A DNA stretch of 64,000 bases, from the NCBI GenBank assembly GCA_903870055.1, contig CAIQBG010000009.1, forward strand, positions 1 through 64,000, given 5' to 3'. Source of the stretch: an uncultured Pseudomonadota bacterium (GTDB lineage: Bacteria > Pseudomonadota > Gammaproteobacteria > Burkholderiales > Rhodocyclaceae). Both the position numbers and the translations under genes were made by a program. The notes under the pieces are model-generated. The model was not told where the DNA came from, did not search any database, and saw only the letters and a list, made by a program, of their open reading frames with translations. Positions 48,678 through 51,435 of this stretch are shown piece after piece. Numbering within the stretch: position 1 is the stretch's first letter; every line of letters starts with the position of its first letter.

Positions 48678-49106
48678 ATGGATTTCTTTCTACAGCCTGT
48701 AAACCTTGGCCTTTTGGCAATTGCACTGATTTCGGGGGCGCTTCTAGTCCGCCAGGTAGTTCAACCCGGAGGAAAAGGCGTGTCGCCGCAGGTGGCCATC
48801 GCCTTGACCGACAAGGAGGGCGGGGTAATGGTTGACGTGCGCGAAGAGCACGAAGTTGCCGTTGAACACATTCAGGGTAGTCAGTTTATTCCGCTCAAGG
48901 AGCTGCCGAACCAGCTCGCCAAGCTGGAGAAATACCGCAAAAAGCCGGTTGTGGTGGTTTGCGCCGCTGGCCAGCGCTCTGCTGCTGCCTGCCGTTTACT
49001 GAGCAAAGCCGGCTTTGAGAATGTCAGCCAGATCGATGGCGGCATCCAGGCCTGGGAAAAAGCTGGTTTGCCACTTAAGCGGGGCAAAGCCCCAAGCAAG
49101 GCTTAA
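48678..49106 (+). CDS. Membrane-anchored rhodanese-like protein
   Basis: The 142 residues have an N-terminal membrane anchor (VNLGLLAIALISGALLVRQV) and a single rhodanese domain with VDVREEHEVAVEHIQGS. The active-site loop is VVCAAGQRSAAACRLL, with Cys as the persulfide-bearing residue. The sulfur donor and acceptor are unknown. The gene is followed 3 bases later by grxC and then secB, an order seen widely in Proteobacteria, with an AibC/YibN-type role in the envelope. Confidence 0.92.
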   Translation: MDFFLQPVNLGLLAIALISGALLVRQVVQPGGKGVSPQVAIALTDKEGGVMVDVREEHEVAVEHIQGSQFIPLKELPNQLAKLEKYRKKPVVVVCAAGQRSAAACRLLSKAGFENVSQIDGGIQAWEKAGLPLKRGKAPSKA

Positions 49107-49109
49107 TTT

Positions 49110-49364
49110 ATGCCAAAAGTGCTGATGTACTGTACAGCCGTATGCCCTTATTGCGTCCGGGCTGAGCAATTGCTCAATAGCAAAGGCGTGACCGAGATCG
49201 AAAAGATCCGGATTGATCTCAATCCGGAAGAGCGGGATGCCATGATGGCGCGAACGAATCGCCGGACGGTGCCGCAGATTTATATCGGCGAGACGCACGT
49301 AGGTGGTTTCGACGACCTGGCAGCGCTGGATCGTGCCGGCGGGCTTGAGCCGCTCCTCAAATAA
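49110..49364 (+). CDS. grxC: Glutaredoxin 3 GrxC
   Basis: Small glutathione-dependent thiol oxidoreductase. The 84 residues are typical of Grx3. The redox motif CPYC lies in VLMYCTAVCPYCVRAEQLL, the cis-proline motif is RTVPQIYIG, and the glutathione-binding GGFDDLAAL follows. It is transcribed between the rhodanese gene and secB. Confidence 0.97.
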   Translation: MPKVLMYCTAVCPYCVRAEQLLNSKGVTEIEKIRIDLNPEERDAMMARTNRRTVPQIYIGETHVGGFDDLAALDRAGGLEPLLK

Positions 49365-49394
49365 TTTCTAATCTAATAACAAGGGTTTATTACC

Positions 49395-49895
49395 ATGGCT
49401 GAAAACGATCAAAGCAACGAGCAGGCAGCAACTGAACAGCAAGCGCCAGTTCAGCCTATGTTTGCCATTGAAAAGCTGTATGTGCGCGATATGTCGCTCG
49501 AAGTGCCAGGCGGTGCTGAAGTCTTTTTGCAACAGCAAGCCCCAGAAGTCGGTGTTCAGTTCAAGACGGCCTTTACCCAGTTGGGTGATGATGTCTTTGA
49601 AGGCATCCTGCAGGTCACTGTTACGGCCAAGGTCGAGAGCAAGGTGTATTTTCTGATCGAACTGCAACAGGCAGGCATCTTCCGTGTTGCGGGCATTCCA
49701 GAAGAGGCGATGCGTCCTTTCCTGGGTTCTGCTATTCCGAACGTGCTGTTCCCGTATGCTCGTGAAGCCGTGTCTGATGCCTCTACCCGTGCCGGTTTCC
49801 CACCCGTAGTGCTGCAGCCGGTTAACTTTGACGCGATGGCTGAAACCGAGCAGCATGCAGCTGGCGAAGTTGAAGCACCGGCAACGGTCCAGTAA
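49395..49895 (+). CDS. secB: Protein-export chaperone SecB
   Basis: Tetrameric chaperone that keeps preproteins unfolded and passes them to SecA. The 166 residues show the family body FAIEKLYVRDMSLEVPGGAEVF, VYFLIELQQAGIFRVAGIPEE, and the C-terminal LFPYAREAVSDASTRAGFPPVVLQPVNFDA. A short acidic/Gln-rich N terminus (AENDQSNEQAATEQQ) is usual in Betaproteobacteria. The C-terminal SecA/zinc-binding tail is acidic. It sits between grxC and gpsA. Confidence 0.97.
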   Translation: MAENDQSNEQAATEQQAPVQPMFAIEKLYVRDMSLEVPGGAEVFLQQQAPEVGVQFKTAFTQLGDDVFEGILQVTVTAKVESKVYFLIELQQAGIFRVAGIPEEAMRPFLGSAIPNVLFPYAREAVSDASTRAGFPPVVLQPVNFDAMAETEQHAAGEVEAPATVQ

Positions 49896-49915
49896 TTCGC
49901 CAAGCGGGAATGCGC

Positions 49916-50926
49916 ATGAGCCAGGCCACCGAAATCCAGCGCCGGATTGGCGTATTAGCCGCCGGCGCTTGGGGAACGGCGCTAGCTGCCAATTGGGCGC
50001 AGCGCCATCAGGTCACCATCTGGGCCCGCGAACCAGAGGTGGTCGAGAGCATTAACGCGGCGCATGTTAACCAGCGGTTTCTGCCGGATATTCTGTTGCC
50101 GGTTTCATTAAAAGCGACAGGTGATCTGGCGGCGCTTCTGGATTCTGATGTGCTGGTGTTGGCGACGCCTGTAGCCGGCTTGCGTAGCACCCTCGTTGCA
50201 ATGCAGTCATTGGCTGCGGGGAAGGCATTGCCGCCGCTGGTCTGGGTCTGCAAGGGCTTTGAACCGCAAACCGGTTTGCTGCCACATCAGGTTATTCGTG
50301 ATGTGCTTGGCGATGTGCCTGCGGCTGCTCTGTCTGGCCCAAGCTTTGCTCAAGAAGTTGCCAAGGGCTTGCCGACAGCGGTGACGCTGGGTTCGGCGAA
50401 CCTGGCACTGGCTGAGAAATTAGCCGATTGGTTGCACACATCGAATCTGCGTCTTTACGCCTCGGGTGATGTTGTTGGGGTTGAGGTAGGCGGTGCCGTT
50501 AAAAACGTTTTGGCCATCGCCACCGGTATCTCCGATGGGCTATCCTTGGGGCATAACGCCCGGGCAGCTTTGATGACACGTGGCCTGGCTGAAATCGCTC
50601 GATTGTGTGAGTGCTTGGGCGGCCAACGTGAAACGCTCACGGGTCTGGCCGGTTTGGGCGATCTGATTCTGACCTGTACGGGTGATTTGTCTCGTAACCG
50701 TCAGGTTGGCCTGGCATTAGGCTCTGGCAAGACTTTGCAGGAAACGCTGGATGCTCTGGGCCATGTGGCCGAGGGTGTCGGCACAGCACGGGAAGTAGCG
50801 CGACTCTCGGTGGATCTGGCCGTTGATATGCCGATTGCCCGTGCGGTTGCCGCTGTTATTGCCGGCGAGCTGGCTGCAAAAGACGCGGTGACGCAATTGA
50901 TGAGCCGAGCACAGCGCCCCGAGTAA
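49916..50926 (+). CDS. gpsA: Glycerol-3-phosphate dehydrogenase [NAD(P)+] GpsA
   Basis: Reduces dihydroxyacetone phosphate to glycerol-3-phosphate for phospholipid synthesis. I chose the ATG at 49916, which has GGGA 6 bases upstream, over the ATG at 49910; it gives 336 residues. The N-terminal nucleotide loop reads VLAAGAWGTALA where the family has GxGxWG, so the first glycine is Ala15. The rest looks intact: VWVCKGFEPQTG, ALSGPSFAQEVAKGLPTAVTL, VGGAVKNVLAIATGISDGL with the catalytic Lys, and LTGLAGLGDLILTCTGDLSRN. It is last of rhodanese-grxC-secB-gpsA. Confidence 0.95.
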   Translation: MSQATEIQRRIGVLAAGAWGTALAANWAQRHQVTIWAREPEVVESINAAHVNQRFLPDILLPVSLKATGDLAALLDSDVLVLATPVAGLRSTLVAMQSLAAGKALPPLVWVCKGFEPQTGLLPHQVIRDVLGDVPAAALSGPSFAQEVAKGLPTAVTLGSANLALAEKLADWLHTSNLRLYASGDVVGVEVGGAVKNVLAIATGISDGLSLGHNARAALMTRGLAEIARLCECLGGQRETLTGLAGLGDLILTCTGDLSRNRQVGLALGSGKTLQETLDALGHVAEGVGTAREVARLSVDLAVDMPIARAVAAVIAGELAAKDAVTQLMSRAQRPE

Positions 50927-50931
50927 TTGCC

Positions 50932-51435
50932 TTAAAGGGCGCCAACAAAACCGTTCTGGCGCCACATCTCAAATACGACAATTGATGCAGAGTTGGCCAG
51001 GTTAAGGCTGCGTATATCTGGCCTCATCGGAATGCGTAAACGGTGCTTGCTATCGAAGGTCGCCAGAATTTCGGGGGGCAGTCCTTTGGTTTCGCAGCCC
51101 AGCACAATAACGTCATCAGGCTGAAATTTAACTTCATGGTATGGCCGACTGCCTTTGGTCGTCATCGCGAAAAAACGTCGCTTTGGGCCATCAGCTCGGT
51201 TATCGGTGAGTTGGGCGATGCAGGACTCCCAGTCCTCATGCACCTGGAGGAAAGCCTGATCGTGATAATCCAGACCGGCACGGCGCAATGATCGATCGTC
51301 TACATCAAACCCGAGCGGGCGGACTAGATGAAGTTCGAAGCCCGTTGCCGCAGAGACGCGAATGAGGTTGCCGGTATTGGGCGGAATTTCCGGATGCATC
51401 AGAACAATGGCGGGGCGGCGTTGTTGGGTCGTCAT
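50932..51435 (-). CDS. trmL: tRNA (cytidine(34)-2'-O)-methyltransferase TrmL
   Basis: SPOUT-fold methyltransferase that methylates the wobble ribose of tRNA-Leu isoacceptors. The 167 residues show the N-terminal VLMHPEIPPNTGNLIRVSAATGFELHLV and RRAGLDYHD. The C-terminal trefoil knot has VIVLGCETKGLPPEIL and IPMRPDIRSLNLANSASIVVFE. It lies 5 bases after comF and converges on gpsA. Confidence 0.95.
   Translation of the reverse strand: MTTQQRRPAIVLMHPEIPPNTGNLIRVSAATGFELHLVRPLGFDVDDRSLRRAGLDYHDQAFLQVHEDWESCIAQLTDNRADGPKRRFFAMTTKGSRPYHEVKFQPDDVIVLGCETKGLPPEILATFDSKHRLRIPMRPDIRSLNLANSASIVVFEMWRQNGFVGAL

Follow-up and report, generated by a model that had tools for sequence, protein, structure and literature searches.

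Gene Organization at the gpsA Locus

The window, by which we mean the whole stretch of 64,000 nucleotides that was analyzed, carries on its forward strand the gpsA gene (49910–50926). It encodes a 338-amino-acid NAD(P)H-dependent sn-glycerol-3-phosphate dehydrogenase, the enzyme that uses dihydroxyacetone phosphate and NAD(P)H to form sn-glycerol 3-phosphate, the backbone of membrane lipids. An alternative ATG start is present at position 49916. The gene was assigned on the basis of Pfam, NCBIfam and a solved structure. Both GPDH domains, N- and C-terminal, score above their curated cut-offs in a full-length match, as does the C-terminal domain typical of bacterial GPDH (PF01210 at 139.6 bits, cut-off 23.1; PF07479 at 175.4, cut-off 25; PF20618 at 77.1, cut-off 27.6). 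The NCBIfam model NF000940 is matched with a score of 441 (cut-off 202), and the nearest solved relative is the GpsA of Coxiella (PDB 3k96, E 1.5e-78).

Directly upstream of gpsA lies secB (49395–49895, forward strand; Pfam PF02556, E 2.8e-48), which is itself preceded by a gene for a glutaredoxin of 84 amino acids (49110–49364, forward strand; PF00462, E 8.7e-19) and a rhodanese-domain gene (48678–49106, forward strand; PF00581, E 7.6e-19). From 48678 to 50926 these genes form one same-strand run, in the order rhodanese–glutaredoxin–secB–gpsA. Just past gpsA, a gene encoding a SpoU-family RNA methyltransferase (50932–51435; PF00588, E 1e-30) is found on the reverse strand.

The Dinucleotide-Binding Loop of GpsA

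We identified the dinucleotide-binding loop at residues 17–22 (49958–49975, forward strand; codons gcc gcc ggc gct tgg gga), which reads A17-A18-G19-A20-W21-G22. Codon 17 (GCC, 49958–49960, forward strand) thus encodes an alanine at the place of the first glycine of the GxGxxG motif. The initial annotation had reported this alanine and noted that its codon is one base from GGC, and both points were confirmed. Its interval for the loop (49958–49969) starts correctly, but holds only the first four codons, and its numbering of the residue as codon 15 is right when counted from the second ATG (49916), the residue being number 17 when counted from the ATG at 49910. The remainder of the enzyme had been described as intact, with which the full-length Pfam match and the presence of a single copy agree. 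In a set of 334 sequences, 34 residues are at least 98.5% uniform and the GpsA of the window carries all 34. The residues Lys115, Lys198, Asp251, Arg262, and Asn263 are invariant in all 334 aligned sequences, including that of the window.

A structural model was made from the GpsA of the window together with four related loci. It has a mean pLDDT of 89.6, with residue blocks 11–20 and 21–30 at 93 and 94, and predicts a strand (residues 12–16) that leads into the loop, followed by a helix (residues 20–29). In a Foldseek search the best match was 3k96 (TM 0.90, E 3.7e-35), and the NAD-bound GPDH of Leishmania (1n1e) was matched with a TM of 0.90 as well; the predicted fold is that of a GPDH, in a confident model. 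The GpsA of the window resembles these two proteins in its GPDH Pfam domains, its full length and its fold, as well as in the other two glycines of the loop and the five invariant residues named above. It differs from its relatives in the PDB in having an alanine where the four with listed alignments have a glycine.

Distribution of the First Loop Residue

Of 297 genomes searched across the family, 290 have a GpsA, and 279 were matched by a degenerate loop pattern in which the first residue may be glycine, alanine or serine. For the census we took one gpsA per genome from 142 family genomes, chosen to cover the genera and partly enriched for those with alanine or serine; one of these (G214) holds a fragment without the loop and is left out of the 141 sequences that were read. 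Also left out were L031–L034, which are not assigned to a genome (the contigs of L031 and G004 are equally long, 26483), L056, where the pattern matched outside gpsA, and extra loci of genomes already counted. The first loop residue is glycine in 105 of the 141 genomes, alanine in 27 and serine in nine. Among the 105 loops that start with glycine, 97 read GAGAWG, six GSGAWG, and two GGGAWG.

Alanine or serine occurs in 12 of the 67 genera sampled, the other genera having glycine. Alanine is found in ten of them: g1, the genus of the window (5/5 genomes), g4 (1), g13 (1), g17 (2/2), g25 (1), g31 (2/2), g43 (1), g52 (4/8), g58 (1), and g61 (9/9). Serine is found in g53 (6/6) and g59 (3/3). Genus g52 is mixed, with alanine in four genomes and glycine in the other four.

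In the same order outside the family, 116 genomes were drawn, 111 matched and 107 were read (four with split or partial matches were left unread), and the first glycine is present in 107/107. Further out in the phylum, where 145 genomes were drawn, 140 matched and 85 were read, it is present in 85/85; 60 of the phylum genomes were chosen down the score list, a non-random sample. With no exception among these 192 genomes, the first glycine is usually strongly constrained. Glycine occupies residues 19 and 22 in 333/333 sequences. Judging from these alignments, the relaxation is confined, in this sample, to one family and to one glycine of the loop. The second loop residue is variable too, with GHGAWG in 2/107 and GNGSWG in 1/107 of the same-order genomes.

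The earlier statement that GxGxxG is nearly universal is accordingly accurate for all 192 genomes read beyond the family. Within the family, 36 of 141 genomes in the partly enriched sample, like the window with its AAGAWG, depart from the canonical motif. Since this departure is shared within the family and the curated models are still passed, the canonical GxGxxG is not a defining feature of GpsA. An alignment of the GpsA of relatives, proposed in the initial annotation as a check, shows that the departure from the rule is real, yet clade-wide. A common neutral change in the genus had been named there as a possible refutation, and this applies in part, the change being present in 5/5 genus genomes and, within the family, in no fewer than 11 further genera.

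Integrity of gpsA and the Supply of sn-Glycerol 3-Phosphate

An error of sequencing or assembly at 49958–49960 would fit a codon that is a single base away from GGC, and had been named in the initial annotation as a possible refutation. The GpsA proteins of four other genomes of the genus (G001–G004) are 80–88% identical to that of the window and all read AAGAWG, with codon 17 being GCC in the window genome (G000) and GCT, GCC, GCG, and GCC in the others. With Ala17 in all five genus genomes we rejected a sequencing error, the chance of which is negligible; as four other genomes share the residue, through partly different codons, it is neither an error nor private to the window. It is also very unlikely that gpsA is decaying or inactive, with lipids made from sn-glycerol 3-phosphate that is imported or otherwise produced. 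The small size of the window genome (2.05 Mb) would suit such a decay, and so would the eleven weak matches to the transporter family, none of which reaches the GlpT-family cut-off; as the relatives of that family form a broad group, these matches carry little weight. Against it, the reading frame is intact, every near-invariant residue is kept, and the differences between the gpsA genes of the genus are mostly silent (pN 0.08–0.15 versus pS 0.65–0.74). The dN/dS ratio is 0.042–0.085 in nine of ten genus pairs, the tenth being saturated, which are rough values as silent sites are near saturation. A further point against decay is that glycerol kinase was not found in the window genome, by a search that was positive in 11 of 14 control genomes.

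The window genome gave one match to the GpsA protein and one to the GPDH C-domain; the possibility that a second, canonical GpsA frees this copy from constraint was rejected on the strength of this single match by both protein and Pfam C-domain. PlsY, which consumes sn-glycerol 3-phosphate, is present. With a sole GpsA, a glycerol kinase not found in this genome and PlsY present, glycerolipids are probably made by way of GpsA alone, which must then be active. Gene content thus points to GpsA as probably the sole source of sn-glycerol 3-phosphate in this genome.

History of Residue 17

Phylogenetic trees were built without the column of residue 17. A tree of 152 rows requires seven changes between glycine and alanine or serine, at least four of which are forced by starred branches, and a mixture-model tree of 70 rows requires eight, at least five of which are forced. 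In both trees most rows with alanine or serine fall in branches that also hold nested glycine rows (g62, part of g19 and part of g52), and the glycine rows of g62 are placed among alanine rows with the same neighboring residues. The genus of the window (g1) hangs off apart from the main alanine/serine branch in both free trees, on a long branch (0.51 in the 152-row tree, 0.70 in the 70-row tree). When all alanine and serine rows and the nested glycine rows, with g1 included, were constrained to one clade, the likelihood was 12.30 log units above that of the free tree, and the clade was not rejected in the AU test (p-AU 0.689). All nine serine codons are TCN, one base from the GCN of alanine and two from the GGN of glycine, which suggests that serine arose from alanine. 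As the constrained tree is better than the free one, the simplest history that fits these alignments would be one old change from glycine to alanine, followed by steps from alanine to serine and several returns to glycine. The direction of change is one that we infer.

Cofactor Preference and Associated Residues

The residues W38, R40, and E41, which follow strand 2, are fixed in the genus of the window (5/5), and E41 recurs in those members of g62 and g52 that have Gly17 and are nested in the alanine/serine branches. At residues 34–45, no Ala17-linked change was found beyond those that the nested Gly17 relatives have too (positions 41 and 44 in a row-by-row comparison). The columns were screened for a residue that might compensate for alanine or serine at position 17. 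Among those listed, the strongest raw association was seen for F57, E41, V113, V44, S142, and L82. E41, V44, L82, and V113 are also present in glycine rows nested in the same branch, and from the alignment the strongest associated columns look like a reflection of common descent. No column tracked residue 17 on independent branches, of which there are only four starred pairs, too few for significance. Position 85 is alanine in 36/36 of the alanine/serine rows, and alanine in 66, valine in 38 and serine in one of the 105 glycine rows of the family; it was considered as a candidate packing partner of residue 17.

These data bear on other accounts of the substitution. Two or more independent changes from glycine to alanine, one of them in the genus of the window, would be in line with the free trees, which place g1 on its long branch outside the main alanine/serine branch and so make a second origin possible. 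We consider this the less likely course, as the likelihood rises above that of the unconstrained search when g1 is kept with that branch, and as g1 has E41, V44, L82, and V113, which are common in the main alanine/serine branch and scarcer elsewhere. More doubtful is an adaptive role, in which alanine or serine alters the affinity for the cofactor or the preference for NADH or NADPH in the clade. The change has lasted across 12 genera, and according to a study on formate dehydrogenase the residue at this place changes the KM for NAD+ there (PMC4410396). Residue 17 has nonetheless gone back and forth with glycine within g52 and between g62 and g13, g4, and g43, while the residues on the cofactor side stayed largely unchanged, and no column followed it on the independent branches (the four starred pairs). 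The shift in NADH/NADPH preference that had been suggested for the window is unsupported, since W38, R40, and E41 are kept in the genus and E41 is common to the nested Gly17 relatives. It is similarly improbable that the constraint on the first glycine was altered throughout the branch by a change in cofactor use (NADPH preference, affinity, or product feedback inhibition), so that glycine, alanine and serine became interchangeable only there.

Comparison With Other Dinucleotide-Binding Proteins

A literature search, which missed most subscription journals, found no report of a change of the first glycine in GpsA. In GxGxxG loops, how strand and helix lie relative to each other is determined by the first glycine, while the second adjoins the phosphates of the cofactor and the third packs the helix (PMC4410396). 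According to the same study, most bacterial formate dehydrogenases have a natural alanine as the first residue of the motif, and its angles are strained in two of the structures solved; its replacement by glycine in one of these enzymes lowered the KM for NAD+ from 60 to 35 μM and raised thermal stability 2.5-fold, and in an NADP+-specific mutant the effect of the residue was of opposite sign (PMC4410396). The likeness to the bacterial and fungal NAD+ formate dehydrogenases (Ala198) lies in a natural alanine that is present in some members only of a group of active NAD+ enzymes (PMC4410396). They are, however, a different enzyme family, and the effects on KM for NAD+ and on stability were measured there and not in GpsA. 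The KTN domain of KEA3 offers a second parallel, as its G531A variant also has alanine for the first glycine of GxGxxG. The domain is a regulatory one and the variant was made in the laboratory; it had lost ATP binding in vitro (PMC10981695), for which reason tolerance of such a substitution is not to be assumed. By analogy with the formate dehydrogenases, a moderate effect of Ala17 on affinity or stability is possible.

We favor, with a high degree of confidence, an ordinary working GpsA in which alanine replaced the first glycine of the Rossmann loop at an early stage of a single branch within the family, the site having since moved between alanine, serine and glycine. As Ala17 is shared with close relatives and found in several related groups, it looks like an old, tolerated variant and not a defect. 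Since the second and third glycines are retained, the one presumably lying against the pyrophosphate and the other packing the helix, the cofactor site would still form, and the first position, at the turn from strand to helix, would tolerate an extra methyl or hydroxymethyl group. If the analogy with formate dehydrogenase holds, we infer that the cost would be small, a slight loss of affinity or stability that leaves catalysis intact. On this account the first glycine of GxGxxG can be lost and regained within one family with the other two staying fixed, and the natural sets of glycine, alanine and serine in close relatives would offer a clean test of the role of the first position. The case also advises caution against calling an enzyme broken or re-tuned when its first glycine is missing.

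Absent and Split GpsA Matches

In three near-complete genomes of the same order (G315, G361, and G404; family f20, genus g87, 3/3) a match to GpsA was absent. In two genomes of family f18 (G359 and G402) the match to GpsA comes in two pieces on one contig, split at approximately residue 74–81, with about 72 bases between the pieces, which looks like a lineage-specific insertion.
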